From: a virus
DNA length: 22,941 bases
IMG/VR virus record: IMGVR_UViG_3300003324_000159
Coordinates: 1-22,941 of that record
Direction: 5' to 3' (one strand)
The position numbers and the translations under genes were made by a program. Positions 2,933-22,941 of the stretch are shown one piece after another (within the stretch, counting starts at the first letter, position 1; each line of letters starts with the position of its first letter). The notes beneath the pieces are model-generated. The model saw only the letters and a list, made by a program, of their open reading frames with translations. It was not told the origin of the DNA and ran no database searches.

Positions 2933-3467
2933 TAGTCCGCGCCTCCACAAAAAATCACGAAACTCGCCCGCGCCTGGGTCACACATTCACAATGGTGTGG
3001 ACTCATTTGAAATCCCTGGGCTTAGTAACCTTCTCAACCCCCCTGTAGCCAAAATCAGTAAGAACGGCACGCAGACAATTCTCAATACAACAGAAGCGAC
3101 GATTCATTTCGCACAGACTGATTTCAGTCACGGTGGATTAGTCGATCTGGCTAATGACAGATTTACAATCGTCGATCCAGGTATCTATACTGTCAAGTAT
3201 CACATCAAGTTCGTCAACGGGACAGCGAATACCTGGCGCAAAGGCTTCTTATATCTAAATTCGGTCTTAGTCGACACTTCGGTTTGTCAAGAACCGGCGA
3301 TCGCATATCAAGGCTCTGCGATCTGCAAAGGCGCTGTTGATTTGCTTTGTGCCGCTGGCGACCATATCTCTCTGACCGGCTATCATAATAACGGCGGACC
3401 TCTTGACGTGACGAATGTTCAGGGCAACACTTGGATGTCTATTATTAAGGTGCGAAGCGATGCCTAG
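2922..3467 (+). CDS. Beta-sandwich (C1q/TNF-like) virion protein, copy 2
   Basis: The frame opens with TTG at 2922, inside the end of the previous gene, and there is no earlier ATG; ATT at 2928 or GTG near 2997 are alternatives. Residues 1-40 are a Pro/Ser/His-rich leader (SPAPGSHIHNGVD, then IPGLSNLL). Residues 55-181 repeat the fold of the preceding protein: HFAQTDFSHGGLVDLANDRF, GIYTVKYHIKFVNG, AAGDHISLTGYHNNGG, NTWMSIIKV. The leader replaces the helical N-terminus of copy 1, so the two may share a knob but attach differently. It contains one dispersed 9-base word at 3042. The gene is certain; the role as a fibre or decoration knob is inferred. Confidence 0.7.
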   Translation: MSIDSPRLHKKSRNSPAPGSHIHNGVDSFEIPGLSNLLNPPVAKISKNGTQTILNTTEATIHFAQTDFSHGGLVDLANDRFTIVDPGIYTVKYHIKFVNGTANTWRKGFLYLNSVLVDTSVCQEPAIAYQGSAICKGAVDLLCAAGDHISLTGYHNNGGPLDVTNVQGNTWMSIIKVRSDA

Positions 3468-5007
3468 AGCACAAAGAGGATTCGGCCTCAAAACTCTGAT
3501 TGAAACCTTGGCCAATGACATTGCCGATGTCAAGCCGAATCTTTATCTCTACAACCAAGGCGAAGTAAAGAATGAAAAGCAACTTATCTTTCACCAGTCA
3601 GACAAGCGTGGCCGGTTGTATATCGGGGCCAACCGATCAGGAAAAACAGTTGGCGGAGTGGTTGAGGACATATGGTGGATGCTCGGCGAGCACCCGTATC
3701 TTAGTGGATTGCCGGAGCCTCCAATTTATGGACGATTGGTCACGGTGGACTTTAAAACAGGATGGAATCAAATCACCCAGCCAGTCGTTAGACAATGGCT
3801 CCCTCCATCCAAACTGATTAATGGTTCGTGGGAAGACTCCTATGACAAAGTCAACCATGTTTTGACATTGGCTAACGGTTCGCAACTCGAAGTGAAATCC
3901 TGGGATCAGGACATCGAGTCATTTGCTGGTGTGCCTCGACATTTTATTCATTTCGATGAAGAGCCGCCGCGAAACATTTACAACGAATGTATGTTACGTC
4001 TAGTTGACTATAACGGTCGCTGGTGGATGACTATGACTCCACTGGACGGAATGGACTGGACATTCGATGTTCTCTACGAGCCTGCTGTATTAGGTCAGAA
4101 TCCTCTGATCGATGTGGTGGAAGTAGAGCAGTCAGATAATCCATTTATTGATGCTGAGTCTGCGGCCGCGGCTGTAGCCGATCTTGGAGACGACGAACAA
4201 GTTGAAATCCGTTCGAAAGGTAAATACCTTCCACTGGGCGGAATTATCTTCACCAATTATGATCGAGATGTGCATGTAATTGATCCTGTAATTCCTAGAG
4301 GGAAAGAATGGGTCCATTGGGAATCTCTAGATCACGGCTTTTCAAATCCAACCGCTTGGCTTTGGCACGCGGTACATCAGCCGTCAGGTGTCGTGGTCAC
4401 TTACGATATGCATTACAAATCACAGATGACTGTGAAACAGCACGCTGCGGTAGTGAAAGAGCGCGAAGCGCAATTAGCCAAGAAGTTTGGGATTGTTCCT
4501 TACCTGCGTGTAGCCGATCCCGCGATCGAACAACGCTCTGCGACTACTGGACTTTCGATTCGGATGACATATGCTCTTGAGGGCATCAATATTTCGTTAG
4601 GTCGGCTTCGGAATGTCGAGGCTGGCTTGGATCGAATGAATACATACTTCTCTGAAAACAAATGGTTTATCACTTCAAACTGTGAGCCTCTGCTGAAAGA
4701 AATTCGTAAGTACCGTATTAAGCGATTCGACTCTAGTAAGGTCCGTGAGAAGAACAACGCACAAGAAAAGCCGGTTAAGAAAGACGACCACGCGATTGAT
4801 TCTTGTCGTTACTTCTTTAGTTACATGCCGATTTTGAATCCGGCGCCTGGTCGTCCCCCTAGCATGGACCGGCAGAAACTTGCTACCCTGTTGGGCACGG
4901 GCGGTAGCGCCGTGGACCTTAATAGAGATTATAGGATTGATACTAATCTTTTGAAAAGTCCCGTTCATACCGTTCAGAACTACGAGTCGACCGTAGGAGA
5001 TTTCTAA
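3460..5007 (+). CDS. terL: Terminase large subunit (packaging ATPase and nuclease)
   Basis: It powers DNA translocation into the prohead and cuts the concatemer. The 515-residue protein has a Walker A motif GANRSGKT (56-63), a Walker B motif HFIHFDEE (161-168) and a coupling motif TMTP (191-194). The C-terminal RNase H-type nuclease has Asp candidates in SLDHGFSNPTAW (D291), VADPAIEQRS (D353) and KKDDHAIDSCRYF (D442, D443, D447). Length fits the family. The ATG at 3460, preceded by AAGGTG, overlaps the stop of the previous gene and is preferred to an in-frame start at 3415 that would add a non-conserved leader. Two near-matches to the dispersed word lie inside (4171, 4507). Confidence 0.96.
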   Translation: MPRAQRGFGLKTLIETLANDIADVKPNLYLYNQGEVKNEKQLIFHQSDKRGRLYIGANRSGKTVGGVVEDIWWMLGEHPYLSGLPEPPIYGRLVTVDFKTGWNQITQPVVRQWLPPSKLINGSWEDSYDKVNHVLTLANGSQLEVKSWDQDIESFAGVPRHFIHFDEEPPRNIYNECMLRLVDYNGRWWMTMTPLDGMDWTFDVLYEPAVLGQNPLIDVVEVEQSDNPFIDAESAAAAVADLGDDEQVEIRSKGKYLPLGGIIFTNYDRDVHVIDPVIPRGKEWVHWESLDHGFSNPTAWLWHAVHQPSGVVVTYDMHYKSQMTVKQHAAVVKEREAQLAKKFGIVPYLRVADPAIEQRSATTGLSIRMTYALEGINISLGRLRNVEAGLDRMNTYFSENKWFITSNCEPLLKEIRKYRIKRFDSSKVREKNNAQEKPVKKDDHAIDSCRYFFSYMPILNPAPGRPPSMDRQKLATLLGTGGSAVDLNRDYRIDTNLLKSPVHTVQNYESTVGDF

Positions 5008-5439
5008 ATGACCGCAAAGAAGGCGGCTGCTACTCCTGAGTCAAAGAATCTTCGCAAGGAGATTGATGAACTCAAGAAGCAGCACGAAAAGGAATTGAAG
5101 GCGCAGCAAAAGGCGCATGAAGAGGCTCTTGCAGAAGTTACTGCTCAGGCGGAAACGACTGCAAAGCCGACCGATCCGAATCCGGTTGCTGGAGAGATGC
5201 TTACTCCGAATGTTATTGCGCCGGATCATCCGGAAGTTCCACATTACGAATCAGGTTACGCTGTCGAGCGTAGTTTTTATCCTGGTCACGAACTTCCAGC
5301 ACATGCTCGTCCGCTTGATTTGGACCCGCGTACAAATGGTCCTTTCCTTGATGAAGTTCGCGCAGTCGAAGCGGCTAATCGGGAAAATATGAGGACCGAG
5401 CATGTTAAGGCTCTCGCTCAGTCTGCGGGGGTGCAGTAA
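5008..5439 (+). CDS. Coiled-coil protein of unknown function
   Basis: The ATG follows the terL stop directly, with TAGGAGA as ribosome binding site. Residues 14-52 form a strongly charged coiled coil (LRKEIDELKKQHEKELKAQQ and on), followed by a Pro-rich linker (56-80). A region of about 60 residues with YESGYAVERSFYPGHELP and a short helix at the C-terminus complete it. It has no membrane span or Cys. Its place between terL and portal suggests a packaging or head accessory role, but I recognise no family. Confidence 0.75.
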   Translation: MTAKKAAATPESKNLRKEIDELKKQHEKELKAQQKAHEEALAEVTAQAETTAKPTDPNPVAGEMLTPNVIAPDHPEVPHYESGYAVERSFYPGHELPAHARPLDLDPRTNGPFLDEVRAVEAANRENMRTEHVKALAQSAGVQ

Positions 5440-5442
5440 GTT

Positions 5443-5955: not shown

Positions 5956-6097
5956 ATATCAATCAGCATCAGACATAGACGAAATTAGTAAGATCGGACC
6001 GGACGGGATAGCAAACGATGACGATGACCATGCCGGATTCGTCGACCCCTGGCGAGACGCCGGAACCTTCATCGAGTCTGAACGATCGGACGCCTGA
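5933..6097 (+). CDS. Possible 54-residue acidic protein overlapping portal start
   Basis: An ATG at 5933 opens a frame that overlaps the end of the zinc-ribbon gene by 23 bases and the portal gene by 80. The product begins MTTPSESKYQSASDIDEISK and has a run of four Asp. It would fill the 62-base gap before the portal gene, but it has no good ribosome binding site, and the long overlap with portal is unusual here. It may be only a shadow. Confidence 0.25.
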   Translation: MTTPSESKYQSASDIDEISKIGPDGIANDDDDHAGFVDPWRDAGTFIESERSDA

Positions 6098-8210
6098 AAG
6101 ATTCCAAGGGAAGAATGAGGCTTCCCGCAAAGAAATCAGGCGCCTGATCGATTGGGCTAACAAAAACTTTTCTGCCACCAAGAATGAGCGTTCGGCTTTC
6201 GAGCGCCAATGGCATTTGAATTATGCCTTCTACAAGGGTCGGCAGAATGTTGTGTTTCGTAATGCTGATTCTCAGTACAACCGATCTTTTTCGCTCTATA
6301 CTCCGCCTGCGCCGTATTTCCGAGCGCGTCCCGTCATTAACAAGATTCGACCGATTGCTCGTCGTCAAATGGCGAAGTTGACGGCGCAAAAACCCTCAGT
6401 GTCGGTCGTTCCGCAATCTAGTGATGATCGGGATATGTATGCGGCGCAGGCGGCTGAGCAAATTTGGGAATACATTTATGAGACTCGGAAAGTTGCAGTC
6501 ACTATTCGTCGAGCAGTTTTCTGGACTGTGATCGACGGCATCGGATTCATTAAGTCTTGGTGGGACCCCAATGAGGTTGATTACCTAACCGGGGACCAAG
6601 GTAATATCTGTTATGAGCATGTGACTCCTTTCCATCTTTTCATCCCTGATCTTAAGTGTGAAGAAATCGAATATCAACCATTCGTTCTTCACGCACAACT
6701 CATGTCTGCCGACGCATTGTCAGCCAAACTCAAGCGTCCGATCAATTATGAATCAGGCAAAGGTTTGGACGACAATTATGCTACGATGTTGGGTGTTCAG
6801 CAGTGGCAGCAAGATCGTACTTGTCTCGCAATGGAGTATTGGGTTAAGCCAGGCCAATATGCGATCCTTCCTGACGGTGGAATGTTCATTATTGCCGGGA
6901 ATCAACTCGTCTCTATCACCGAGGGACTTCCATACACACATGGTCAATATCCTTTCGCAAAACTTTCCGATGTACACACTGGACAATTCTATCCCGACTC
7001 AGTAGTCCAAGACTTGATTCCGCTACAGCGGGAATATAATCGTACTCGCGGACAGATCATCGAGGCTAAGAATAGAATGTCCAAGCCTCAGATTGATATT
7101 GAAAAGGGTGCGTACGATCCTAACAAGATCACTTCTGAGCCTGGTTTGATTCTTGAACGCACACCGGGTTTTGAGCCTGCGCGTTTGCTACAGCCAGCGC
7201 AACTTCCTGCATATGTCGAGAATGAACTTCTCCGTATCCAGGCAGATATGGATGATATATCTGGACAACATGATGTTTCTCGCGGCGACACGCCTGCCGG
7301 CGTCTCTGCGGCTACAGCGATTAGTTATCTGCAAGAGGCAGACGACACAATGCTTTCTTTCACATATGACTCTGTGGAAGAGGCAGTCGAGAAACTCGCC
7401 AAACTAACTTTGAGTTACGTTCACGATTATTGGACTGACGAGAAGGTAATCAAAGTCACTGGAATCGATGAGTCTTTCGATGTGTTGAGTTTCCGCGGCA
7501 GCGACATTCCCTCTCAGGCAGATATTCGCGTCGAAGGCGGATCGGCACTTCCTACTTCAAAGGCTGCACGTCAGGCATTCCTTATGGACCTTATGGATCG
7601 AGGATATGTTCCTCCGGATCAAGGTCTTAAGATCATGGAAATCGGCGGCCTGGATTCTCTCTTTAAGCGCCTTAAGATTGATGAGGCTCAGGCTGGTCGA
7701 GAGAATCTTAAGATGCGCCAGGTTGACGAGAAAATGCTTGCCGATTATCAGCAGCAGGCACAGCAGGAACTCATTGCGGAAAATGCAGACAATCCAAATG
7801 TTCGCGCGGACGAGTCTGGACAGTTGTGGGATTACTCTGCTGATCCTTCCGGACAGAACATTCCTCCGGAGCCGCTTAATCCTCCGCTTATTGTTCCAGT
7901 CAACTCCTGGGATAACCATATGCTCCATATTCAGGTGCATAATGATTATCGTAAGTCGCAAAGTTTTGAACAGTTGGACAAGCCTGCGAGAGATTTGTTT
8001 GAGCAGCATGTTCAATCGCATGTTATGGCAATGCAGTCAGATTACAATATGCAAATGAATACTGATCCTTCTCAATTAATGATGCAGCAACCCGCTGCCC
8101 CTGTAGCCCCGCCAAATCCGAGCGGGGAGAATCAATTTAGTGATATTCCGGCGGCTGATGAGCAGCCAAGTCAATTTGGAGGACTGGATAATGGCTCAGC
8201 ACCAAATTAG
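6018..8210 (+). CDS. Portal protein
   Basis: The portal forms the twelve-fold ring through which DNA enters and leaves the head. At 730 residues it is close in length to P22-type portals. Residues 1-35 are disordered and acidic. The conserved core runs from about residue 40, with helical INKIRPIARRQMAKLTAQKP, YYIYETRK-type segments, SVVQDLIPLQREYNRTRGQI, the long helix before DDISGQHDVSRGDTPAGVSAATAI (typical of portal families), and a barrel region rich in Gln. The last 70 residues are rich in Gln, Met and Pro. Three ATG codons lie in frame at 6018, 6024 and 6030 and none has a strong ribosome binding site, so the exact start is open. A 9-base word lies at 8100 and a near-match at 7310. Confidence 0.92.
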   Translation: MTMTMPDSSTPGETPEPSSSLNDRTPERFQGKNEASRKEIRRLIDWANKNFSATKNERSAFERQWHLNYAFYKGRQNVVFRNADSQYNRSFSLYTPPAPYFRARPVINKIRPIARRQMAKLTAQKPSVSVVPQSSDDRDMYAAQAAEQIWEYIYETRKVAVTIRRAVFWTVIDGIGFIKSWWDPNEVDYLTGDQGNICYEHVTPFHLFIPDLKCEEIEYQPFVLHAQLMSADALSAKLKRPINYESGKGLDDNYATMLGVQQWQQDRTCLAMEYWVKPGQYAILPDGGMFIIAGNQLVSITEGLPYTHGQYPFAKLSDVHTGQFYPDSVVQDLIPLQREYNRTRGQIIEAKNRMSKPQIDIEKGAYDPNKITSEPGLILERTPGFEPARLLQPAQLPAYVENELLRIQADMDDISGQHDVSRGDTPAGVSAATAISYLQEADDTMLSFTYDSVEEAVEKLAKLTLSYVHDYWTDEKVIKVTGIDESFDVLSFRGSDIPSQADIRVEGGSALPTSKAARQAFLMDLMDRGYVPPDQGLKIMEIGGLDSLFKRLKIDEAQAGRENLKMRQVDEKMLADYQQQAQQELIAENADNPNVRADESGQLWDYSADPSGQNIPPEPLNPPLIVPVNSWDNHMLHIQVHNDYRKSQSFEQLDKPARDLFEQHVQSHVMAMQSDYNMQMNTDPSQLMMQQPAAPVAPPNPSGENQFSDIPAADEQPSQFGGLDNGSAPN

Positions 8211-8430: not shown

Positions 8431-8432
8431 TT

Positions 8433-8975: not shown

Positions 8976-8991
8976 TTAAGGAAATATTACC

Positions 8992-9795
8992 GTGGAACCC
9001 GAAGACACCGGCCAGGGCAACTCCCAGGGCGAAAGCACAGGAGGAAATCCGGCATGGCAAGAATTTCTTGCTTTTGTTCCGGAGGATCAGCACAGCCAGG
9101 CGCAAGAAGTTCTTAGTAAGTGGGATCAGGGCGTACAGCAAAGATTTCAGGCCAGGGCAGAAGAACTCGAACCGTTTAAGCCTTTCATTGAGCAGAAGGT
9201 TGACCCGCAAACTTTGCAGGCCGGACTTCAACTCTATGAAGCACTTAACACAAGACCACAGGATTTGTTTAAGTCAATGGCAGATACGTTCGGTTTGGAA
9301 ACTGCACAGCAGATTCTTGGAATTACGCCTCAGGCTACAGAACCCGCTGGTAGCAAAGAAGATGAAGATGATCCCTTCAAGGGAATTGACGAGCATCCTG
9401 TAATTAAGGAACTCCGAGAAAACTTCAACAATCTTGCAACCGTGCTTGTCGGAGAACGTGAAAGGTCCGAAATTCAGGCACAGGAAGATTTGATTGCTGA
9501 TGAAATCGCTGGGGTTTCTGAAAAATTGGGCCGCGAACTCAAACCATTTGAAGAAGAGCATCTGATTCTTTCAATGCTGAATGGCGCCAATATCGACCAG
9601 GCTTTTAACAACCTCCAAGGTTACCTGAAAGAGATTGGTGTTGTTCAGGATGCGCCACCGGCTCCTACGGTTCTTGGTTCAAATGGCGGAGTTCCAAGTG
9701 CTCCGGTTGATCCCAGGAAGATGACAGATAGCCAGCGCCAGCATTCAGCGATTGATCTTCTTAAGAATCTGAATGCTGCTGATCGACAGGGATAA
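8992..9795 (+). CDS. Scaffolding protein
   Basis: Role inferred: it guides assembly of the capsid protein into a prohead and leaves before or during packaging. The 267-residue acidic protein is mostly helical, with charged segments such as GERERSEIQAQEDLIADEIA and a Pro-rich hinge near residues 220-240 (DAPPAPTVLGSNGGVPSAPV). It lies directly before the major capsid gene, the usual place. It starts with GTG at 8992 after AAGGAAAT. A near-match of the dispersed word is at 9333. Confidence 0.8.
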   Translation: MEPEDTGQGNSQGESTGGNPAWQEFLAFVPEDQHSQAQEVLSKWDQGVQQRFQARAEELEPFKPFIEQKVDPQTLQAGLQLYEALNTRPQDLFKSMADTFGLETAQQILGITPQATEPAGSKEDEDDPFKGIDEHPVIKELRENFNNLATVLVGERERSEIQAQEDLIADEIAGVSEKLGRELKPFEEEHLILSMLNGANIDQAFNNLQGYLKEIGVVQDAPPAPTVLGSNGGVPSAPVDPRKMTDSQRQHSAIDLLKNLNAADRQG

Positions 9796-9798
9796 CAA

Positions 9799-11019
9799 AT
9801 GGTTACAACCACTCTGGCTACCGTAGATAATCTTCTCAAGGAAATCTACGAGCCTGGGCTGAACGATCAACTCAACAACGCCACTAAGACTCTCACGCGA
9901 ATTGAGAAGACTTCTGACGGTGTTGAGCATGACGTCGGCGGTAAGTATGTTTCGTTTGCGATTCGTACCAAGCGAAACAATGGAATTGGTGCTCGTCTTG
10001 AAATGGAGGCTCTGCCGGCCGCCGGTCAGCAGGCTTATGAGCGTGCCCGAGTTGGTTTGAAGTATCTTTATGGTTCTCTCGAACTTACTGGCCAGACTCT
10101 TGAACTTGCCAAGACGAATGAGCAAGCATTTGTAAATGTTCTCGATGCCGAAATGGCGGGAATCAAGCAAACGCTTGCAAAGGACACGAACCGTCAGGTT
10201 TATGGTACTTCTACCGGTAAGTTCGGTACTGCAAACGCAGTTGGTACTACGACGACTCTCGTTGTTCCGAATGAGCAGAACATTTATTTCGAGGTCGGCC
10301 AGGTTATCGATATTTACGATAACGCTGATGCTGTTCGTGCTTCTGGAAAGACAATCACTGCAATTTCAGTGGGTGCTTCCAATACCACGATTACGTTCAC
10401 GACTGCCTCGGGTACTGCTACCGCTTCCGGTGATTACGCTGTTCGTGCGGGGAACCGTGCGAAGGAAATCATTGGTCTTTCAGAAATTATCGGTACTTCC
10501 AACACTGTTTACAATATCAACCCTGCCACTGTTCCTGTTTGGCAGTCAGTTGTAAATGCAAACGGTGGAACGAACCGTGCTCTTTCAGAAGGTCTGATGA
10601 TTAAACTCGTCGACGACATCGGCGATCTTGGTGGCGGAATGCCGACAGTTATTTTCTGCTCTCGCGGTGTTCGTAGGTCGTATTTTAACCTGCTTGTCCA
10701 GCAACGCCAGTTTGTCAACACTCAGAAGTTTGAAGGCGGATTTACGGGTCTTGCTTTCACGACTGACGATGGTGAGATTCCTGTTGTCTCTGATGTTGAC
10801 TGCCCCAAGAACAAGATGTTTGCCGTGAACGAAAAGGAACTTAAGTTCTATGCGGCAAACGACTGGGGATTTATGAACCGCGACGGTTCAATGTGGCAGC
10901 GAGTTATCAACTCGTCCGGAAACTTCGATGCTTACGATGCTACGCTGTTTAAGTATTGTGAACTCGGAACCCATCGCCGCAACGCGCACGGTATGCTTTC
11001 GGATATCACCGAGGGCTAA
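9799..11019 (+). CDS. Major capsid protein (HK97 fold)
   Basis: It builds the icosahedral head. The 406-residue product has an E-loop-like region (GIGARLEMEALPAAGQQ, 62-78) and a spine-helix region (LAKTNEQAFVNVLDAEMAG). A beta-rich insertion spans about residues 148-217 (VGQVIDIYD, then ITAISVGASNTTITFTTASG), like the extra domain of P22-type capsid proteins. The P-domain and A-loop region ends with GGMPTVIFCSRGVRRSY and LFKYCELGTHRRN. No N-terminal propeptide is obvious. A ribosome binding site (AGGGAT) precedes the ATG, and a hairpin follows the stop. Confidence 0.92.
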   Translation: MVTTTLATVDNLLKEIYEPGLNDQLNNATKTLTRIEKTSDGVEHDVGGKYVSFAIRTKRNNGIGARLEMEALPAAGQQAYERARVGLKYLYGSLELTGQTLELAKTNEQAFVNVLDAEMAGIKQTLAKDTNRQVYGTSTGKFGTANAVGTTTTLVVPNEQNIYFEVGQVIDIYDNADAVRASGKTITAISVGASNTTITFTTASGTATASGDYAVRAGNRAKEIIGLSEIIGTSNTVYNINPATVPVWQSVVNANGGTNRALSEGLMIKLVDDIGDLGGGMPTVIFCSRGVRRSYFNLLVQQRQFVNTQKFEGGFTGLAFTTDDGEIPVVSDVDCPKNKMFAVNEKELKFYAANDWGFMNRDGSMWQRVINSSGNFDAYDATLFKYCELGTHRRNAHGMLSDITEG

Positions 11020-11026
11020 TTGGTTT

Positions 11027-11062
11027 GGAAAGGGCTAGGCTGTCCACGGACTAGCCCTTTCC
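11027..11062 (+). terminator. Hairpin after the capsid gene
   Basis: GGAAAGGGCTAG (11027-11038) pairs perfectly with CTAGCCCTTTCC (11051-11062) around a 12-base loop. The tail (TACTCTTT) is only partly T-rich, so this may be a leaky terminator or an mRNA-stabilising hairpin. The next gene starts 20 bases later, leaving no room for a separate promoter. Confidence 0.75.
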
Positions 11063-11081
11063 TACTCTTTAAAGGATTAAA

Positions 11082-11666: not shown

Positions 11667-11673
11667 TTGATTT

Positions 11674-11709
11674 GGCTACAGGGTGCGACCTCCCGTCCAC
11701 CCTGTAGCC
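11674..11709 (+). terminator. Hairpin made of two inverted copies of the dispersed word
   Basis: GGCTACAGGGTG (11674-11685) pairs perfectly with CACCCTGTAGCC (11698-11709) around a 12-base loop. Each arm contains the 9-base word found throughout the window. Stem and loop sizes equal those of the hairpin at 11027-11062. The tail TTCAATT is a weak T-tract, so termination would be partial. Confidence 0.75.
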
Positions 11710-11730: not shown

Positions 11731-12972
11731 ATGGCCCGGCAAATTGATGTCTTCATTGGCGGAAAACAAAGCGGGGCCACAGACCACGTTGTAACACTCA
11801 ATGATTCTGCTTTGGATATTAACCAAAGCGATGATGTTACTCCAGAATTCACTCCAGGTCAGGTGGCCTATACTCGCGTGCTTGTCGATCCTGCTGGAAT
11901 GCAGGATAACTGGCAAGTTGTGGAAAAGAATCTTTTTAGCAATATCATCACTAACCCAATGGGGTTGAGTGACACTCGTTCTGTTGTCAAGAATCCTGGG
12001 ACTACTCGCCAGACAATTTTTGGCTCATCTATGGAGCCTTCCGGTTTTTCTACGACGGCAGCAAAATGGAACTTCTATAACAACCAACTTGGTGGGGTTC
12101 CCGCATATCGTGGATATTCTGGCGGTGCTGTCGACAAATGGAACACTGACGGCGATCTGCAACAGGCTCTCGGCTCTGCGCACACTAGACGAGTCTTTCT
12201 GTCATTCAAAGGCACAGTCACTGTTGCGGCATTGGGAAATAAATCAGGTCCATCTCTCGCAGATGTAGACACTCATTTCTCACAGACAGACTTTCCTAGT
12301 GAGGCTAGCGGTTGGGTCGAATATCTTGGATGGTGGCATGAGCCAACCGAAGATTTCACCACTGCATCCACTCAGGCCGAATATCGTCGCCAGTGGGGTC
12401 TGCTCGCAGATTATGTTCATAATAATGGACCCAATAATCTTTGGATGACAGGACCGACTTTCAACGGTTCTCAGATGTTCAAGACAAATGGAATAAATGC
12501 TTTCCCGAACTGGTGGGCTGGAAATGATGCTCAAGGTGTTCCTTATTACGATATCGGTTCTCTTGATTTGTATTCACGAGTGGGGCGCGCTCCTGATACG
12601 GGACCTCTAGCCGGATATTTCACGTACAAGGCTCTGTTCATTGATCTTGGATGGGAAAACTTCATTGCAAATCACCCTGTTCGAAAAGGTCGTTGGCTGA
12701 CCGGAGAATTCGCTAGCGCTTTGGCTGGTGACCCTCTGGCGAATCCTAATGGAAATTACACTGGTCCGGACGATCCTGACGGCTCTCGGCGAGCGTTTTG
12801 GGTTGAGACTGAAATGGGTCCGAATTTCGAACAGCGTGGGAACAGCATCGAGGCAATCTTTTGGTGGAGCGCTAACGGAAACCTCGGAGATTTCCGGCTA
12901 CAGGCAGACAATAATACTCCTGCAAAGTGGGCTGCTCTTTGCGCTCACACTCGACAGGCTTATGGCTGGTAA
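11731..12972 (+). CDS. GH26-like glycosidase tail fibre or depolymerase
   Basis: Role inferred: it cuts polysaccharide on the host surface during adsorption. Residues 1-95 are an attachment region that includes one GLSD repeat like those in the next gene (78-81). Residues 96-413 follow the beta/alpha barrel of clan A glycoside hydrolases near family GH26: YLGWWHEPTEDF (acid/base candidate E204), YRRQWGLLADYVHNNGPNNLW, DIGSLDLYSRV, WLTGEFASA (nucleophile candidate E326) and AIFWWS in the last strand. Both key Glu are present, 122 residues apart. The ATG has AAAAGGATGG upstream. The exact substrate cannot be told; family assignment is from pattern only. A 9-base word lies at 12896. Confidence 0.75.
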   Translation: MARQIDVFIGGKQSGATDHVVTLNDSALDINQSDDVTPEFTPGQVAYTRVLVDPAGMQDNWQVVEKNLFSNIITNPMGLSDTRSVVKNPGTTRQTIFGSSMEPSGFSTTAAKWNFYNNQLGGVPAYRGYSGGAVDKWNTDGDLQQALGSAHTRRVFLSFKGTVTVAALGNKSGPSLADVDTHFSQTDFPSEASGWVEYLGWWHEPTEDFTTASTQAEYRRQWGLLADYVHNNGPNNLWMTGPTFNGSQMFKTNGINAFPNWWAGNDAQGVPYYDIGSLDLYSRVGRAPDTGPLAGYFTYKALFIDLGWENFIANHPVRKGRWLTGEFASALAGDPLANPNGNYTGPDDPDGSRRAFWVETEMGPNFEQRGNSIEAIFWWSANGNLGDFRLQADNNTPAKWAALCAHTRQAYGW

Positions 12973-12975: not shown

Positions 12976-15888
12976 ATGTCAGTATTGATGGATGCGGAAT
13001 TCAATGTCTCTCCAGATAACACTGTTCTGGACGAGGGCAATACTCCGTACGTTGCCGTCAATACAGGTATTGCCGGGAATACTAATTATCACTCAGACAA
13101 TGGTTTTGTCTATGACGGAACTTTCTCTGCTCTTTGGAATGGAACCACTGGTCAGACTCTTATCAATCGATTTGATCTTGCTAGTCTGACCAACATCATC
13201 GATCACGGAATTGCCATTCGCCCGCAGGGAACCCCGAATGCAAATACTGCGATTCTGTGGGTTTCTGCATCCGCTACAAGTACCGTGCGCGCCTCAGTGA
13301 GAATTCTGTCTGATGGAACTATCCAGATGCGTCAGGCGAGTTCCTCGGTTTGGGATTCGGTCGCCAACGGATTCGGCACTAAGATCGCAGGAACTAACTT
13401 AAACCGTTGGTGGTTCATCGAGCATGTAGTCACTGCCACGACTCAGCGGGTCAAAGTTTGGGATGACACTCAGACTCTTATTGAAGACTCTGGGAATATC
13501 ACTTACAATGGCTCGACTTTCGATCAGGCATTTGGTGGCTCTCAGAGTTCATTCTGGACCTGTAGCTATGACCGTCATATTATTCGTGACGATTCTAGTT
13601 TCCTTATTGGCCCTAGAGTTGTCGCTTCTAACTGGACTCGGACGATCACAGAGCAACTCGGATTGACTGACTCTCTTATCACCGAAATTGTCGCCTTCCT
13701 GCTTCAAAATGACTTCGAAGCAGTCGGTATGATTGGTGCGGCATTCACGGCTGGTGAGACAGGATATGACAATCTCACTGGTCAATGGGCGAGGGATCAG
13801 GTTCTACACTATAATGGTACTCAGTCGGCGCGATTGAATTATGCGAACAATAACGGGTTGGCGCTTAAGAGTTTTACGTCGGCTCAGGCCCACGTATATA
13901 ATGGATGGGCCGAGAATTTCAACACACGTCCGGACACTGTGACCACAATCTCGCAGGTTGAGGATGCAGCAGGTACTATTCTTGGAAGAGTCAGGATTAA
14001 TGCTCTCGGGGGGATTGTAATTGACAATGGAACCACAACTGTTTATACACAAGTTGGACCAACTGTTTTCACATTGGTGGGTCCCACTCGTAAGTGGTAT
14101 TGGCTTGAGCATTTTGTGGAAGCGGATCAGAACAGGCAGAAGTTCCAAATCTACGACTACGCCGCCAACCTAGTTCTCGATACAGGCTGGCAGACATATA
14201 CAGGTGGTAATGTTTCCAGGGCCAAGATTGGATTCCTGAACAATTGCACTGTTGATGCCAGTATTGATAAGCACCGAATTGCAATTGGAGTTCCTACCGG
14301 CCCTGTAGCCCAGCCAAATGATTTCGCACAGAATCTAGCAGAACTTGAGAGTCTCGTTGACTCTATGACAGTCGACCAATTTCGTACTCTGCTGGAGTCA
14401 ATGGGTCTATCGGACACTCTGCAAATTTCGTCGTCGACACAATGGGCTGCCAACCCTAACGATGTTATGGCATTGGCAGATTCTATTCTTGTCGGAACTC
14501 ATAACACATTCTTGACTCAACAGGATGCCGTTGGAATTTCCGAACTAGACGATGGTTTTCAAATCGTCAATGAGACTCAAACAGACGCTCTAGGGCTGGC
14601 TGACAGCCTGGTTGTGCAGCGTGGTATCCTGGCAGCAGACATTACGGACGACACAGGACTCACAGATTCACTTATTGTTGGCAAGAATTATGGAACTCAA
14701 GTTGATGATTCTGCTGGACTAGTTGACTCTGTTTCGGTATTGCAAGGATTTGCACAGAATAGACAAGTTGATGATTCCGAGAATCTGATAGATTCACTTC
14801 AAATTGGTCACGGTAGAACTCCGACTGATGATATGACTCTGAGAGATTCTCTCGTCACCAATAAGTATACTCTAACTCCAACGATTACTGATCTGTTGGG
14901 GTTGGAAGATGTTATCACCACAATCAAGAATGGAGTGCCTGTGGTGTCACTCTCAAAGGCTGACCAAGTTGCGGCCGCGCTACGGGCACTCGGCTATACG
15001 GGATCAATCCAGGATATGCAATATAAGTATCTCCTGGACAAGTATACGCAGCAATTTGGTGCGCCGACTAAAGCATTGAGTTCTGCTGATATGCAACTTA
15101 AACTTGGATATCAGGTAGAGGACCTTCTCAATCTTTCGAATATTTCCAGTCTAACCAATGCTTGGACTGTTGCTCAAACAGATTTGGAAGGTCTGACAGA
15201 TACTCCGTTGATTACAGGTATCTTTGAACCAAAGGAGATTCTGTCTAGTCAGGATCAGTCCGCTGGGTCAACTGCGATCACTGCATCTGTTACTTTGAAG
15301 GCTGGACGACTTTATCATTTGGTTGTCACAGGATTCCCAACAACCGGAGGTACAGCCGCCGATCCTACTGGAGTTCAGCACGACTCCAACAATACAGCAT
15401 TCACAAAGATCGGCAGTGTTCTCACTGCAAATGGAAACTGTGACCTTAGTATTTGGGCGATTGATGGTTCTTCGCCTAGTGGTGCTGGAACAATCACTAT
15501 CACATTTGCGGCCAGCCAGAATGTCATTCAATGGAAATTGATAGAACTTGCTGGAAGCAAGATCACTGGTGCTGGCGGATTTGGTGGTCGTAAGCAAGCA
15601 ATTGTTTCGGCTCAGAATGCAGCGACAACTCCGTCTGCTGCACTTGGTTCTGCCCCGACTGCTGGTGACATCGAATATATTGCAATTGTCTACAACGCTG
15701 CAAGTGCAAACACAATCACGGCAGGAGCAGGAACTCCGACATTGCTCGGTTCGAACTTGCAGGGTGCATCAGATGCTGTGCAACTTGCAATTGGCTATAA
15801 GATTTCAGCACTAGCAACGACTCTTGGATTCAACACAACTAATGCATCCGGCAAGGCGATGCTGATATGTGAATTGGAGGCAGCATAA
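12976..15888 (+). CDS. Large lectin-like tail fibre with GLxDSL repeats
   Basis: This 970-residue product has four parts. Residues 1-215 and 246-440 are two divergent copies of a ConA/LamG-like jelly roll (compare RWWFIEHVVTATTQRVKVWDD with KWYWLEHFVEADQNRQKFQI). Residues 455-651 are about nine tandem units of roughly 20 residues with the pattern D-D-x-x-G-L-x-D-S-L; one more unit sits at 226-237 between the lectin domains, and partial ones near 715-746. A helical insert is at 655-710, and residues 750-970 form a beta-sandwich C-terminal domain rich in Gly, Thr and Ala. It is probably a receptor-binding fibre that works with the glycosidase encoded before it. A 9-base word lies at 14302. Confidence 0.8.
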   Translation: MSVLMDAEFNVSPDNTVLDEGNTPYVAVNTGIAGNTNYHSDNGFVYDGTFSALWNGTTGQTLINRFDLASLTNIIDHGIAIRPQGTPNANTAILWVSASATSTVRASVRILSDGTIQMRQASSSVWDSVANGFGTKIAGTNLNRWWFIEHVVTATTQRVKVWDDTQTLIEDSGNITYNGSTFDQAFGGSQSSFWTCSYDRHIIRDDSSFLIGPRVVASNWTRTITEQLGLTDSLITEIVAFLLQNDFEAVGMIGAAFTAGETGYDNLTGQWARDQVLHYNGTQSARLNYANNNGLALKSFTSAQAHVYNGWAENFNTRPDTVTTISQVEDAAGTILGRVRINALGGIVIDNGTTTVYTQVGPTVFTLVGPTRKWYWLEHFVEADQNRQKFQIYDYAANLVLDTGWQTYTGGNVSRAKIGFLNNCTVDASIDKHRIAIGVPTGPVAQPNDFAQNLAELESLVDSMTVDQFRTLLESMGLSDTLQISSSTQWAANPNDVMALADSILVGTHNTFLTQQDAVGISELDDGFQIVNETQTDALGLADSLVVQRGILAADITDDTGLTDSLIVGKNYGTQVDDSAGLVDSVSVLQGFAQNRQVDDSENLIDSLQIGHGRTPTDDMTLRDSLVTNKYTLTPTITDLLGLEDVITTIKNGVPVVSLSKADQVAAALRALGYTGSIQDMQYKYLLDKYTQQFGAPTKALSSADMQLKLGYQVEDLLNLSNISSLTNAWTVAQTDLEGLTDTPLITGIFEPKEILSSQDQSAGSTAITASVTLKAGRLYHLVVTGFPTTGGTAADPTGVQHDSNNTAFTKIGSVLTANGNCDLSIWAIDGSSPSGAGTITITFAASQNVIQWKLIELAGSKITGAGGFGGRKQAIVSAQNAATTPSAALGSAPTAGDIEYIAIVYNAASANTITAGAGTPTLLGSNLQGASDAVQLAIGYKISALATTLGFNTTNASGKAMLICELEAA
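14398..14928 (+). repeat. Tandem protein repeats, about 20 residues each
   Basis: Units centre on GL or a variant at residues 477, 499, 520, 540, 561, 581, 603, 621 and 642 of the fibre protein. Spacing is 18-22 residues. The strongest core is ITDDTGLTDSLIVGK. DNA of neighbouring units has diverged (for example GATGATTCTGCTGGACTA against GATGATTCCGAGAATCTG), so the array is old. Confidence 0.8.
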
Positions 15889-15968
15889 TGGGTACAGGTT
15901 GGTGGATTCAAACCATCCTTCTGATTATCATTATTTGTTTGCAACTTGCAGGCTACAGGCGGCCATGA
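15888..15968 (+). CDS. 26-residue single-span membrane peptide
   Basis: The ATG overlaps the fibre stop as TAATG, with GGAGG at 15876-15880 as ribosome binding site. Its TGA overlaps the ATG of the next gene as ATGA (15965-15968). The product begins MGTGWWIQTILLIIIICLQL and ends AGYRRP: two Trp, a hydrophobic stretch of about 15 residues and a basic end, fitting one membrane span. A 9-base word (15951-15959) forms codons G-Y-R. Overlaps on both sides and a strong site argue that it is translated. Function unknown; a small membrane-active or virion peptide is possible. Confidence 0.7.
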   Translation: MGTGWWIQTILLIIIICLQLAGYRRP

Positions 15969-16435
15969 CTAATCCCACACAGTTAGTAGACTCCTTTGTT
16001 CCGAATTCAGACGGAAGATGGGTGTCTGAGAATTTCGTTAGACTCAACGAGGTTGTTCACGACTACGACCCCAACCTCGACGTGGGTTTCTTGCCAAGCG
16101 AACTTCAAACGACACCCTTTCTCCGGGAGTATTGTTTTCTCGTATTCGATCGAGCCAGGAACACTCCGGTCTTTTATTTCAAGCCGGACGAAACTCCTGC
16201 CAAGGTCCTCGCGAGAATCTTCCGCATCGACACAAGAAAAAACGATGTCCTAGCGAATTTGGAAGCAGAGGAAACAGCAGAGGAAATCCTGAGACTTAAG
16301 GCTCTCATGGACGACCAGGAAGACCGTAAAGAACTTGCCGACTGGATTATGACCAAGTCTGGCAACTATCCGAAGTTTAAGCCTCCGGGCGAGGATAAGG
16401 TGCAAAAGTTCGATGACAAACTTCACCGTATCTGA
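15965..16435 (+). CDS. Hypothetical 156-residue protein
   Basis: The ATG at 15965 overlaps the stop of the membrane peptide; an in-frame start at 15869 lies within the fibre gene and is not needed. Residues 1-75 are mixed, with FVRLNEVVHDYDPNLDVGFL and a PVFYFKP strand. Residues 80-125 are a charged helix (EAEETAEEILRLKALMDDQE), and the C-terminus is rich in Lys and Pro. Similar proteins often stand beside the adaptor gene in short-tailed phages, but I recognise no named family. Confidence 0.7.
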   Translation: MTNPTQLVDSFVPNSDGRWVSENFVRLNEVVHDYDPNLDVGFLPSELQTTPFLREYCFLVFDRARNTPVFYFKPDETPAKVLARIFRIDTRKNDVLANLEAEETAEEILRLKALMDDQEDRKELADWIMTKSGNYPKFKPPGEDKVQKFDDKLHRI

Positions 16436-17090
16436 CATCTTTACTAGGGTTCAGCGTACATTTGGCGATGAGGCGGCCGTCCAAGTGACGCTGGACGATG
16501 TCCTTAATTGGATCAATGATTCTCAAAAGGAAGCCTGTAATCAGATTCCTAAGTTGCTTCCTAAGGTGGCATACCTAGATACGGTGCAGGACCAGATTCG
16601 ATACGATTTTCCTAGTGATCTGTTCACTCTCTCGGAAGTGTACTACCAGGATTCGAACTTGCTGAGTTATTTCCAACTCAAGTTCTTCACTCTGTTTGAA
16701 TTCTCACAGTGGGCTGACGGCTGGGATGGAACGACGTATGCGTCTGCTCAGCCGGCAATTTACACTCGGGAAGCAAACGAGTTGATTGTCTTTCCTGCTC
16801 CCAGAGAATCAGCCGAAGACGGTTTGAAACTTCATTACGCCAGATATCCTGTGCTGGTGACAGCGGACACCGACCCTATCGATCTTCCAGAATATCTAGA
16901 TCAATATCTTCTAGATTTCTGTATGAATCGCGCCTATGAAATGGACGAGGATTGGTCCTCTGCGGATCGAATGGCTAACAGAATTCAGACAGCACTGAAT
17001 GACAATAAGACAACTCCTGAACAAAGACACAATCAGTCAACTTATGCATCTATGAACACGGCATGGGAAGATACATACGATGCCCTCTAG
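16413..17090 (+). CDS. Head-tail adaptor protein
   Basis: Role inferred: it binds under the portal ring and carries the tail nozzle. The 225-residue product is helical at the N-terminus (FTVSDIFTRVQRTFGDE, VTLDDVLNWINDSQKEACNQI), has the strand pair DTVQDQIRYDFPSDLFTLSEVYYQD and a C-terminal helix region (PEYLDQYLLDFCMNRAYEMD). The helix plus Q-x-Y-D-F-P pattern is typical of the gp4/gp11-like adaptors of short-tailed phages. AAGGTG about 10 bases upstream supports the ATG, which overlaps the previous gene by 23 bases. The next gene codes for the likely nozzle, as in podovirus operons. Confidence 0.75.
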   Translation: MTNFTVSDIFTRVQRTFGDEAAVQVTLDDVLNWINDSQKEACNQIPKLLPKVAYLDTVQDQIRYDFPSDLFTLSEVYYQDSNLLSYFQLKFFTLFEFSQWADGWDGTTYASAQPAIYTREANELIVFPAPRESAEDGLKLHYARYPVLVTADTDPIDLPEYLDQYLLDFCMNRAYEMDEDWSSADRMANRIQTALNDNKTTPEQRHNQSTYASMNTAWEDTYDAL

Positions 17091-18657: not shown

Positions 18658-18857
18658 TGGCATATGATTTTCAACCATACGCCGCAGGAAAGAAAGTTTA
18701 TGGATTGGGTGGAAGACCTAATCCTACGAATGGACCCCTAGATCGTTGGGGATATATTCAAAGAGATAAGGCGGCTAAAATAAGGCGCCAGGCTTTGTTA
18801 AATAGGTTGCAGCAGATGAGTAAACTAAGAGGAAATTATGGCCTACGGAACTTCTAA
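18657..18857 (+). CDS. Hypothetical 66-residue basic protein
   Basis: The ATG overlaps the stop of the nozzle gene as TAATG. The N-terminal half is Gly/Pro-rich (YAAGKKVYGLGGRPNPTNGP), the C-terminal half a basic helix (RDKAAKIRRQALLNRLQQMSKLR). Its last 20 bases overlap the next gene. Function unknown; it stands where short-tailed phages encode small tail or internal proteins. Confidence 0.65.
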   Translation: MAYDFQPYAAGKKVYGLGGRPNPTNGPLDRWGYIQRDKAAKIRRQALLNRLQQMSKLRGNYGLRNF

Positions 18858-19476
18858 TAAGCGGCCTAGGGACGACCAGCAACAGCAACCGCAAGTACAA
18901 GTTCAACAGTCAATTGGTGGTCCGCCTCCCAATGAGTCCGGACAATATTCTGCTGCGCCCAATAAAAAGCAACGCGATCAACAACAGAATGGTGGTCCGA
19001 AACACGCTTCGCCACTTCAACGTTATCTGAGGAACGATCCTACATTTCGTGCTCAGTCGAGCCAACTTGACCAGGCAATGCAGGATTATCGAACCCAGAT
19101 TTTTGGAGCAGGCTACAGGCCGGGAGCAGAGCATCCATTTCAAACTGCTGATCCGACTAGCACAATTGGTCAAATTCTCCAGCAGTTTCAATCTACTCGT
19201 CAAGGTCTGCAACAGCAAAAGAGACAAGACCTCCCCGCGATGCAGAGTGATTTCGCTTCAAGAGGTCTAGTCAACTCTGGGCTTTACGCCAAGGCCGACA
19301 ATGATTATCGGACAGATTATGCCAGGAATCTAACCGATCTAATCAATTCGCGCCAGAGTTCGATTCAGAATGTCTTGAATTCGTTGCAGCAATTCCAGCA
19401 CAATATTCAGGGTCAACGACAGAATGCTAGGCTTGAGGCAATTCGCCGTCGAGCCGCTACGATGGGTCTTCAATAA
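18838..19476 (+). CDS. Gln-rich protein, probable internal virion protein
   Basis: The ribosome binding site AAGAGGAAA and ATG at 18838 lie in the end of the preceding gene. Of the 212 residues the first 60 are Gln/Pro/Asn-rich and disordered. The rest is helical and basic, with DYRTQIFGAGYRPG and a Gln-rich C-terminus (SIQNVLNSLQQFQHNIQGQR). Helical, Gln-rich proteins after the nozzle gene are typical of ejected internal proteins in short-tailed phages. A 9-base word lies at 19111 (codons G-Y-R). Confidence 0.65.
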   Translation: MAYGTSNKRPRDDQQQQPQVQVQQSIGGPPPNESGQYSAAPNKKQRDQQQNGGPKHASPLQRYLRNDPTFRAQSSQLDQAMQDYRTQIFGAGYRPGAEHPFQTADPTSTIGQILQQFQSTRQGLQQQKRQDLPAMQSDFASRGLVNSGLYAKADNDYRTDYARNLTDLINSRQSSIQNVLNSLQQFQHNIQGQRQNARLEAIRRRAATMGLQ

Positions 19477-20873
19477 TGGTAAATTATTCAAGTTCACCTG
19501 AGGGTGGCGGTGGCGGATATTCTGCTGATCTTGCAGCATTTCTTGCAGCCTTGGCAGAAGCATTGCGAGCGAATCCGAACTCTCCAAACGGACGCGACGC
19601 ACAATTGATGCAACTAGGTGCTCCATATGGTGCTCCTGGTTTGAATATGCAATGGGCGCAGGGTTTGCTTGCAAATCCGAGTCAGGCGCAATTCGAACCT
19701 GAAGTTATGAAATATGGTGCTCCTTCTGCTGTCCAAAATGGTGGAGGCAGTTATACTCCGGAACCTGATCCGAATAAACAGACTGGCGCCCCTGTAGCCG
19801 CACCTGTTGATCCGGCACAGGCAATTTTGGATCAAATGATGCGGCAATATAATCAGTCTGCTGGTGGATTTGATTATGAGTCTGCACTGGATCAGGTTAA
19901 GTCTCAACTTGCGGCTGCATATGCTCCACAAATTAATGCTATTCGTGGGCAGAACAAGACAACTAAGCGAGAGGAAGCACAGAACGAGAAGGCTGTGCGA
20001 AAGATGTACGGTGCTCTCGCTCGATTTGATTTACGTGCAGGAGACAGATCACAGGATCGAGCAAATGCAAATGCCCGAGCGCTTGCCAAACTCGGCGAGG
20101 CTACAGGGCGTCAGATTTCAGATGCTACGACTGGACAAGTTGCCGCCGAACGAAATCTTTTGCAGGGTCTAGGTTTGGGTTCTGCTGGAAAAAATCTCCT
20201 TGGCAATGTTCAAGATATCGGATCGAGAGCAGGAGCACTCGCTGCTAGAACTTCGCAGGGAGCACAGGCGAATGCGAGAACTTATGGCGAACATCAAGCG
20301 GATATGCTCACACAGTTGGCGAGTTCCGATAAACTCGAAGGGACGAATGCTAGAGTTGATCTGCGTCAGCAACTTGCGGACATATTAGCAGGGAATCGGT
20401 CCAATATCGCTGCACTTCGAGGACAGCAGGCTGCGGCTGTAGCCCAAGCGATTCCGCAATTACTAGGGACTCAGGCTGATTACGAATCTCAGCGACAGGA
20501 TATGCTTCAACAGATTTTTGAGAATGTGACAGGAGTTCAGCAACAGCAATTTGAGAATCAACTTGCGCTGCAACAGGCTCAAGGTGCTGGTGCTCCGACA
20601 TTGAGTAATCCTTTGATGGAGTCTCAGCAATATCTTGCTGGTGCAGTGCCTCCGAAGTATGCCTCAACCGCTGAGTCAATTTTGCAGACTCTCACAGCAG
20701 AGCCACAATTTGTTTCGGGAGGGATTAATAATCCTCTTAATGCAGGGGAAATGCTTAAGATCACTCCTGAGTATGCTATGCAGGAAATTGCTCGACTTGC
20801 ACAAGAGAAGGGAATCACTGATCCGGCTATCATCGCTGCTCTGAGACAGGCTGCATATAACCTCTATGGCTAA
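19476..20873 (+). CDS. Ala/Gln-rich internal (ejection) protein
   Basis: The ATG overlaps the previous stop as TAATG. The 465-residue product has a Gly-rich start (EGGGGGYSADLAAFLAALAE), a Pro/Gln linker with PVA repeats near 105-110, and a long helical region of Ala, Gln and Arg (from about 150). Its C-terminal part resembles the end of a structural helix bundle (AEMLK-type, then GITDPAIIAALRQAAYNLYG). No enzyme motif is visible. With the next and previous genes it forms a block of probable ejected proteins. 9-base words lie at 19791 and 20099 and a near-match at 20436. Confidence 0.65.
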   Translation: MVNYSSSPEGGGGGYSADLAAFLAALAEALRANPNSPNGRDAQLMQLGAPYGAPGLNMQWAQGLLANPSQAQFEPEVMKYGAPSAVQNGGGSYTPEPDPNKQTGAPVAAPVDPAQAILDQMMRQYNQSAGGFDYESALDQVKSQLAAAYAPQINAIRGQNKTTKREEAQNEKAVRKMYGALARFDLRAGDRSQDRANANARALAKLGEATGRQISDATTGQVAAERNLLQGLGLGSAGKNLLGNVQDIGSRAGALAARTSQGAQANARTYGEHQADMLTQLASSDKLEGTNARVDLRQQLADILAGNRSNIAALRGQQAAAVAQAIPQLLGTQADYESQRQDMLQQIFENVTGVQQQQFENQLALQQAQGAGAPTLSNPLMESQQYLAGAVPPKYASTAESILQTLTAEPQFVSGGINNPLNAGEMLKITPEYAMQEIARLAQEKGITDPAIIAALRQAAYNLYG

Positions 20874-22941
20874 GACTGCATCGCTGAAATTAAACGTTAA
20901 CGATCTGCTGGCTGCATTGTATCAACCTCAGCCACAGATCACTCCGGCGTTTAATCAGCCGAATTTTGCCGATAAGGTTATCTCTCAGGCGCTTCCCGAT
21001 GAGAGTTTGATTCAAGCAGCACAGGCAGGGAATAATGAGGGACCGTCTCTTCTCGGACGAGTTCTTGACTACCTGTCGATTCCAGAATACACTGTCGCCA
21101 ATGTTGTCCAAGATGTTCTAGACTCCGGTAGTAATACTGACGAGTCCGGTTGGGACGTTCTCAAGAATGTCGGCGCTGATGTTGCCGGTGGAGTTGCCAA
21201 TATTGCTGATGTTCCTTTCAATCCTGTCAATTGGATTCCGGGTGTCAATCAGGGCCTGACAAAACTCGCCGATAAGTACAATGAGCCTCGCACTGGATTC
21301 GATCTGATTCACGATAATTTTGGGGGGACAGGCTCTACTGCTGGCGATGCTATCGCAGGATTTGGATTGACCGCGCTTCTTGATCCTCTCACTTATGTCG
21401 GAGGTCTTGGACTACTCAAATCAGGTGCTAAGGAAGGAATTGAAGCGGCTACAGGGGCTGGATTGCTTGGGCGCGAAATCGCTCCAGAGATTGCTGATCG
21501 AGTTTGGAATCCTGCGACTAAGAAGTGGGAGATTAACGGATCATCTGAGGGAGTTATTCAAAAGATTCTCCCTGGTGAGAAACTAGTTCGTGATCCTGGT
21601 CCGCTACCTAATCCAAATCCTATTTCCGGTCGAGCCAGAGACACTCTTTTGAAGTTGCAAGATGAAAAGCCGCCTCTGACATTGCGAGAAGGTCCGCTTC
21701 CTGACGTCAAATTCACTCAATTCAAGCACCCGACGACTGGAAAGTTCTACGATCCAGAGAAATTGATTGCGTCTCAAAGGGAGGCTGCAAAGGATCGACC
21801 TTTGTTTAGTGGAATTCCAACTACTCAAAGAGATATTGAAAATTTCGCAGACCGTCTGCCCGAAATCAGGCGGGTAATCGCGCCTGAGACGACCCCACCA
21901 CGCGCTGCCAGTGGCCGCCTCGCAGCCGATGCGGTCGAGACGGCCCAAGAGTACGTCCGAAAGTCGCTTCCCAAGGGAGAATCCACACTAAATCCTGTTC
22001 GTCAGGTGAACCTTTTTAAGAAGGTTGCTGCTGGCACCAAGGGGAATGTTGGTAAGAAACTAGCGGCATTTAAAGCGGCAGAAGATGCTCTGATTTCTCA
22101 GGGAATTCAGCCTGTAGCCTTCACCGGGGAAAGACTACGGCTGAGTGATCTGATTAATCGTATCAAACCCAAGAGCATGGATGAATTGAATTCAACGCTA
22201 GGAGAATTTGCTAAAAAGTACGATCAGGATATCGTTACAAAGGCTGCGATTGATTCTCTTATCTCAAAGCGAGCCGACACTGTTGCATCTGTGTTGTCCC
22301 GTTTCGAGGATATTGCAAAGCCTTCTGTCGAGCCGGAAGTTATGGCTGATCGACTTAAGATTCAAAAGCAACTTCACGATCTTGGAATCGATTTCACTCG
22401 AAAGGCTGGTTTTTCCGAGAAAGAAGCACAACTTGTCAAGCCGCTGCTCGAAAAATCCCTGGAAGGAACAGGACTCAAGGTCGAACAAGTTATGCAGTCT
22501 TATGGTCCACAACTTTTCAAGGCTACGCTACAGGGCAAGATTGATATTGACTCTGTCCTTGCTCTCGATCGCGCTATAGCCAAGGAATTGTCTCTGGATT
22601 ACAAGGGTGTCTCACAATTCAAATTGAAGGCTGGACGCTACTTGCAGAATAATAAGGCTGTCGAAGGCTTTATGACTCGGACTGCTACATGGTGGGGAAG
22701 AGCAGACATTTTCAAGTACTACAAGGATGCTTTCGATCACGCTGTTCAGGACACTCGCGGCCTGGCAAATCTACTGAATGGGATCGCTCGAAAATATAAG
22801 CCGGATGAGCGAGTTCAGGCATTCAAATATACTCAGAGAATGGCGCAAGGGATTAAGGAAGATATCCCGGATGATCTAGCGCCATTGGTTGCAGTTTTCC
22901 ATGACTACTTTGACACTGCATTCGGTGTGTCGAAGATGACC
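20866..22941 (+). CDS. N-terminal 692 residues of a very large virion protein (partial)
   Basis: The ATG at 20866 overlaps the previous stop by 8 bases. The frame has no stop through the right edge (692 codons). Residues 95-200 contain Gly/Ala-rich hydrophobic segments (for example VAGGVANIADVPFNPVNWIP and AGDAIAGFGLTALLDPLTYVG) that resemble membrane-active helices of ejected proteins. The rest is helical and charged. No catalytic motif is seen so far; a lysozyme, protease or transglycosylase domain may follow beyond the window. Giant proteins in this place are typical of short-tailed phages that eject a DNA-transfer apparatus. 9-base words lie at 21447 and 22111. Confidence 0.8.
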   Translation, partial: MAKTASLKLNVNDLLAALYQPQPQITPAFNQPNFADKVISQALPDESLIQAAQAGNNEGPSLLGRVLDYLSIPEYTVANVVQDVLDSGSNTDESGWDVLKNVGADVAGGVANIADVPFNPVNWIPGVNQGLTKLADKYNEPRTGFDLIHDNFGGTGSTAGDAIAGFGLTALLDPLTYVGGLGLLKSGAKEGIEAATGAGLLGREIAPEIADRVWNPATKKWEINGSSEGVIQKILPGEKLVRDPGPLPNPNPISGRARDTLLKLQDEKPPLTLREGPLPDVKFTQFKHPTTGKFYDPEKLIASQREAAKDRPLFSGIPTTQRDIENFADRLPEIRRVIAPETTPPRAASGRLAADAVETAQEYVRKSLPKGESTLNPVRQVNLFKKVAAGTKGNVGKKLAAFKAAEDALISQGIQPVAFTGERLRLSDLINRIKPKSMDELNSTLGEFAKKYDQDIVTKAAIDSLISKRADTVASVLSRFEDIAKPSVEPEVMADRLKIQKQLHDLGIDFTRKAGFSEKEAQLVKPLLEKSLEGTGLKVEQVMQSYGPQLFKATLQGKIDIDSVLALDRAIAKELSLDYKGVSQFKLKAGRYLQNNKAVEGFMTRTATWWGRADIFKYYKDAFDHAVQDTRGLANLLNGIARKYKPDERVQAFKYTQRMAQGIKEDIPDDLAPLVAVFHDYFDTAFGVSKMT

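Follow-up and report, generated by a model that had tools for sequence, protein, structure and literature searches.

A 9-base word repeated along a podophage genome fragment as a probable initiation site of a phage AEP primase

The 9-base word CCTGTAGCC is repeated on both strands of the window, by which we mean the whole stretch of 22,941 bases analysed here, an IMG/VR virus fragment carrying a podophage structural module. Comparison with related and unrelated phages suggests that the word is the template recognition or initiation site of a phage AEP/PrimPol primase, which is fused to a RecA-type helicase and encoded beside a family A DNA polymerase (PolA); we give this reading a probability of about 0.8. 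It is preferred because nearly all AEP-bearing relatives carry their own version of the word while the AEP-less relatives are without it, and presence of the word appears to follow an AEP domain fused to the replicative helicase. Such a replication-priming site was not among the roles proposed in an earlier, sequence-only reading (repressor or stoperator, partition, nucleoid, Chi, packaging, uptake or host-imposed signal) and fits the word better than they do. Those roles found no support, as the word tracks the phage AEP primase: it is missing in family members without the AEP domain and polymerase, differs where the primase type differs, and recurs in unrelated phages with this primase from widely differing hosts, but not in AEP-less phages of the same host genera.

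Counting of exact matches in the window gave 12 copies of CCTGTAGCC, six in each orientation, while 100 dinucleotide shuffles gave a mean of 0.11 and a maximum of 1, which confirms both the over-representation and the even orientation split claimed in the sequence-only reading. CCTGTAGCC is the top over-represented 9-mer of the window, and its parts are likewise enriched (CTGTAGC, 21 copies against 1.5 expected; TGTAGCC, 19 against 1.4; CTGTAGCC, 16 against 0.3). Ten copies are genic and the remaining two form an intergenic inverted pair (Table 1).

Table 1. Word copies, near copies, hairpin and identified genes of the window
Feature	Position	Strand	Remarks
CCTGTAGCC copy	3042..3050	+	exact match; inside gene 2922-3467
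CCTGTAGCC copy	8100..8108	+	exact match; inside portal gene
CCTGTAGCC copy	11674..11682	-	exact match; left arm of intergenic inverted pair
CCTGTAGCC copy	11701..11709	+	exact match; right arm of intergenic inverted pair
CCTGTAGCC copy	12896..12904	-	exact match; genic
CCTGTAGCC copy	14302..14310	+	exact match; genic
CCTGTAGCC copy	15951..15959	-	exact match; genic
CCTGTAGCC copy	19111..19119	-	exact match; genic
CCTGTAGCC copy	19791..19799	+	exact match; genic
CCTGTAGCC copy	20099..20107	-	exact match; genic
CCTGTAGCC copy	21447..21455	-	exact match; genic
CCTGTAGCC copy	22111..22119	+	exact match; genic
Near copy GCTGTAGCC	4171..4179	+	retains CTGTAGCC
Near copy GCTGTAGCC	7310..7318	-	
Near copy TCTGTAGCC	9333..9341	-	
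Near copy GCTGTAGCC	20436..20444	+	
Perfect hairpin, 12-bp stem	11674..11709		GGCTACAGGGTG..CACCCTGTAGCC; two word copies; intergenic
Terminase large subunit	3415..5007	+	PHROG match; query for relatives
P22-like portal protein	6018..8210	+	
Major capsid protein, SU10-type	9799..11019	+	query for family
SU10-type adaptor protein	16413..17090	+	

The window corresponds to the structural half of a Jasminevirus-like podophage, and no replication genes were found in it. Two large proteins of the structural region (11731-12972, 413 aa; 12976-15888, 970 aa) gave no Pfam, PHROG or NCBIfam matches. Among isolates, the closest to it are Arthrobacter phage Jasmine, Microbacterium phage Shocker and Cellulosimicrobium phage DS1. 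A scan with the capsid protein retrieved 472 relatives, while none was found in 85,000 cellular genomes, and hence neither a prophage nor a host was assigned. A further scan was based on the polymerase alignment, since that of the full primase-helicase lacked a conserved stretch; the polymerase relatives number about 360. A search of 2.9 million viral contigs for the inverted word pair yielded 41 loci, and window-type structural proteins are encoded at about half of them; close pairs in the same orientation in IMG/VR fell mostly on unrelated contigs, with two family members among the loci listed. The word-pair hairpin of family relatives lies just 3' of the capsid gene in 20 of the 21 annotated pairs, several of these contigs being near-duplicates. 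At the place where relatives carry that hairpin, immediately 3' of the capsid gene, the window has a hairpin with 17-nt arms (11027-11062), which is a probable terminator. The contig start (1-49) is a perfect 24-bp inverted repeat with a 1-nt loop and looks like a fold-back assembly or amplification artefact.

Contig G030 (47,070 bases) joins, in one contig, ten window-like structural genes, an AEP-helicase gene (41405-43186), a PolA gene (43122-44924) and the exact 9-mer of the window, which occurs nine times forward and 11 times in reverse along the whole contig, the reversed control giving 0. We infer that the phage from which the window derives also has an AEP primase, its replication genes lying beyond the 22.9-kb fragment.

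The enrichment extends throughout the relatives, whereas its absence there had been named in the sequence-only reading as grounds for rejection. In complete relatives, each with its own word, 40-130 copies lie on both strands and over the whole genome, and most of the loci fetched likewise show an extreme word peculiar to them (CTGTAGCC, CCTGTAGA, CTGTAGAT, CTGTAGCG, CTGTGGGT, CTGTGGCT, CTGTCGCG and others). Family words include CCTGTAGCC, CTGTAGA, CTGTCGCG, CTGTGGG and CTGTAAAGG; TGT is invariant among them and the letters 3' of TGT differ. Counts against expectation were 101 against 18 for CTGTGG in Jasmine, 38 against 0.07 for CTGTAAAGG in Shocker, 116 against 32 for CTGTCG in DS1 and 98 against 22 for CTGTAG in ctEqG8. 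The copies span both genome arms in about equal orientations, with a spacing per strand of 0.9-2 kb in both orientations; no consistent switch of strand preference, as an origin signal, was seen along the genomes, G001 being the sole exception. Alignment of Jasmine with Brad revealed that 81% of the aligned CTGTGG sites were intact, compared with 60% for permuted control words (p=3e-5), which indicates that the word sites are maintained by purifying selection. Shocker (L057) carries a further repeat, TACCCTAA, with 15 copies against 0.1 expected (for example at 522, 538, 1915, 1927, 44320 and 44342), mostly a short distance upstream of gene starts and oriented with transcription, which looks like a promoter or operator element.

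Protein clustering was carried out over complete or near-complete family genomes, 16 word-bearing and six word-lacking (G009-G014). The N-terminal AEP domain and PolA were present in 16/16 of the former and 0/6 of the latter. The primase-helicase of intact word-bearing genomes has 552-645 residues, against 348-390 in the word-lacking ones, whose helicase gene retains the helicase domain and starts past the absent N-terminal AEP domain. That some family members are without both AEP and PolA possibly goes back to one event. In these word-lacking genomes (L280-L296) palindromes such as CAATTG or GAATTC are over-represented. On the AEP tree the word's fifth letter undergoes seven changes, against 31.7 in shuffles. 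Across 14 family genomes the partial correlation of word variation with AEP, given capsid similarity, was about 0; fine variation of the word within the family is explained no better by the AEP than by general relatedness, and it was not counted in favour of the primase. The family A polymerase gene is present as two open frames 0.3 to 3.5 kb apart in G005, G006, G003, G017 and G029 (L268-L273, L262-L264, L297-L299, L305-L306), several genomes having small ORFs in the gap, and an intron, an intein or a split polymerase is possible.

The N-terminal domain of the helicase of word-bearing relatives is predicted to have an AEP fold. It carries conserved [DE]xD, S..H and D..W....LRPP motifs, a weak Pfam Prim-Pol match and a PHROG 'DNA primase' match (1.7e-18). 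The structural model (pLDDT 92) matched best the AEP domain of S-2L PrimPol (Z 19.9) and the RSF1010 RepB' primase (Z 17.8), while eukaryotic and archaeal primase catalytic subunits gave Z near 10.

The association was examined in eleven phages of other lineages, chosen solely for distant homology to the AEP-helicase (Serratia phage Serbin; Pseudomonas phages PMBT14 and Lebethron; Gordonia phages SteamedHams, Cozz, GTE2 and Mayweather; Curtobacterium phage Shrew, Microbacterium phage Triscuit, Brevundimonas phage Strzyga and ctuI7215). The hexamer [CG]TGTGG ranked 1-10 of 2080 in all eleven; it came first in seven of them and among the top three in ten, and the eleven represent about four or five independent lineages, some of the Gordonia AEPs being nearly identical. 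Microbacterium phage Hamlet, a presumed control, proved to be AEP-positive and has 33 copies of GTGTGGCC against 1.9 expected. Phages of the same host genera without the AEP (GTE7 of Gordonia, Min1 of Microbacterium, LUZ24 of Pseudomonas and Eta of Serratia) were not enriched for the word, and Rhizobium phage RHph_TM3 and Lactococcus phage 1706 gave no match to the family AEP profile and are without the TGT word. At a fixed cut-off of z>=8, 24/28 AEP-positive and 1/14 AEP-negative genomes passed (p=1e-6, an optimistic value as related genomes were counted separately). The AEP-positive phages under the cut-off were G002, Mayweather, Strzyga and ctuI7215. The sole AEP-negative genome over it, G016 (L302-L304), is a GC-rich contig with 33 copies of CCCGTAGCCC and no AEP or helicase match; it was rejected as a word-bearer, since its copies are partly tandem (CCCGTAGCCCGGCTT) and the contig is unrelated to the phage family, and was regarded as carrying an unrelated repeat.

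We infer that the AEP domain itself is the reader of the word, and likewise the template strand and the primer start. The primase would read the TGTAGCC part of the single-stranded template 5'-(CC)CTGTAGCC-3', and a short G-rich primer would begin opposite the C run or just upstream of it. Selection would retain copies on both strands genome-wide, at about one per 1-2 kb per strand, and sites of this density would make lagging-strand priming possible wherever the fork stands. The 3' letters would shift as the primase diverges, giving each lineage its own version; the TGTGG words contain GTG(G), and the window lineage has TGTAG followed by CC and preceded by a C-rich run, from which a G-rich primer could be copied. 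The observed spacing of the word per strand falls within the range of Okazaki fragments, which are about 1-6 kb in T7 (PMC12839067).

Several characterised systems resemble the proposed one. NrS-1 PrimPol is likewise a phage-encoded AEP. It has a helix-bundle and a helicase region and begins its primers at short template sites, TTTGGTTA and GTG/GTGG, with the start at the first base upstream (PMC8718748). Of these sites, GTGG agrees with the TGTGG core found in the words of Jasmine and the Gordonia phages; in the window word, GT is followed by A and the specific 3' part is longer, and the NrS-1 enzyme differs in being itself the replicative polymerase. RSF1010 RepB' is the closest solved structure with DNA, and GTG has been proposed as its initiation site (PMC4434180); however, ssiA and ssiB of RSF1010 provide one 40-nt hairpin initiator per plasmid strand in a leading-strand mode only, compared with the dozens of dispersed 9-mers found here. 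T7 gp4 primase also uses sites dispersed in the genome (GTC, (G/T)2GTC), with the 3' flank affecting choice (PMC12839067), but it is a DnaG-type enzyme of unrelated fold, whose trinucleotide occurs 504 times in the lagging strand region and needs no long-word enrichment. GP55 of lactococcal phage 1706 is a phage replicase AEP that starts with G opposite C at the site 5'-CCAAC-3' (PMC12205980), as proposed here, although it belongs to another AEP type.

Primase sites are usually too short to mark a genome, whereas the marks described here are extreme and lineage-specific. Primase initiation sites as such have been described before; for extended, lineage-specific words spread over entire phage genomes, a limited search of open-access papers returned no description, nor any account of genome-wide enrichment of primase words. 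It is likely that phages with AEP primases in general have the extended template specificity of their primase written into the genome, each as dozens of copies of one lineage-specific word of 7-10 bases, whose core stays constant while its 3' code changes fast in co-evolution with the primase. If so, primase specificity and lagging-strand start sites would be readable from sequence alone. The words would directly predict where primers begin in scores of phages, both cultured and uncultured (Jasmine, Shocker, DS1, phages of Gordonia and Serratia), and they offer a natural series in which to study template reading by an AEP primase and the re-writing of sites across a genome upon a change of specificity.

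The word may alternatively be bound by another replication protein co-inherited with the AEP-helicase, such as PolA, an accessory DNA-binding protein, a helicase-loading protein or a fork-restart factor, which we consider unlikely. PolA was found in all AEP-positive phages tested, and certain small proteins, among them the Jasmine 29736-30413 family, are confined to word-bearing phages; however, that family is absent from several word-bearing phages, the helicase domain is present also in word-lacking phages, and known AEPs already read GTG-type template sites. As to PolA, L405, L410, L447 and L419 have close homologues without the family AEP and are without the TGT word. L405 and L410 have instead another dispersed word, ACCCAGGG, on both strands, with 26 copies in the L405 contig and 37 (22+15) in contig G033 (L457-L459), these phages also having PolA. 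G033 encodes a Pfam Prim-Pol AEP as a separate gene, and in the full L410 contig a separate helicase gene is preceded by a Pfam Prim-Pol protein scoring over the curated cut-off. With the same PolA, another AEP type is thus accompanied by another word, and this favours the primase over the polymerase as the probable reader.

Sites bound by a repressor, a nucleoid protein or a partition protein, whose recognition sequence differs between lineages, would also be dispersed, asymmetric and lineage-variable, as are the stoperators of cluster A mycobacteriophages, dozens of asymmetric lineage-specific sites that are read by a repressor. This explanation is nevertheless very improbable. Orientations are about equal in both genome arms rather than one relative to transcription, no repressor gene was identified in the replication modules inspected, the lack of capsid relatives in the 85,000 cellular genomes gives no sign of lysogeny, and the word is associated with a primase, its core recurring in phages from other families and hosts with the same primase-helicase-polymerase module.

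A Chi-like or host-imposed motif (recombination hot-spot, uptake, host methylation or nucleoid signal) deserves equally little credence. The word is short, dispersed and asymmetric, and phages without recombinases of their own reportedly may accumulate host Chi; on the contrary, the primase-less GTE7, Min1, LUZ24 and Eta, of the same host genera, are without the word, the comparison being one of phage genomes, and the GTGTGG core is common to Serratia, Pseudomonas, Gordonia, Microbacterium and Curtobacterium phages. A DNA packaging signal was rejected, as word-lacking family members retain the same terminase family.

An origin in codon or amino-acid preference (P-V-A repeats) or in composition has next to no probability: all five genic plus-strand copies read P-V-A, but the minus-strand copies are spread over three frames, both as the sequence-only reading had described, there are intergenic copies (in Shocker 13/45 sites are wholly intergenic against 2.5 expected), and 300 within-gene synonymous-codon shuffles that kept the proteins gave a mean of 0.23 and a maximum of 3 against the 10 genic copies observed. 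Coding constraint is therefore no explanation of CCTGTAGCC, and the earlier claim of a DNA-level element withstood the codon-preserving shuffles.
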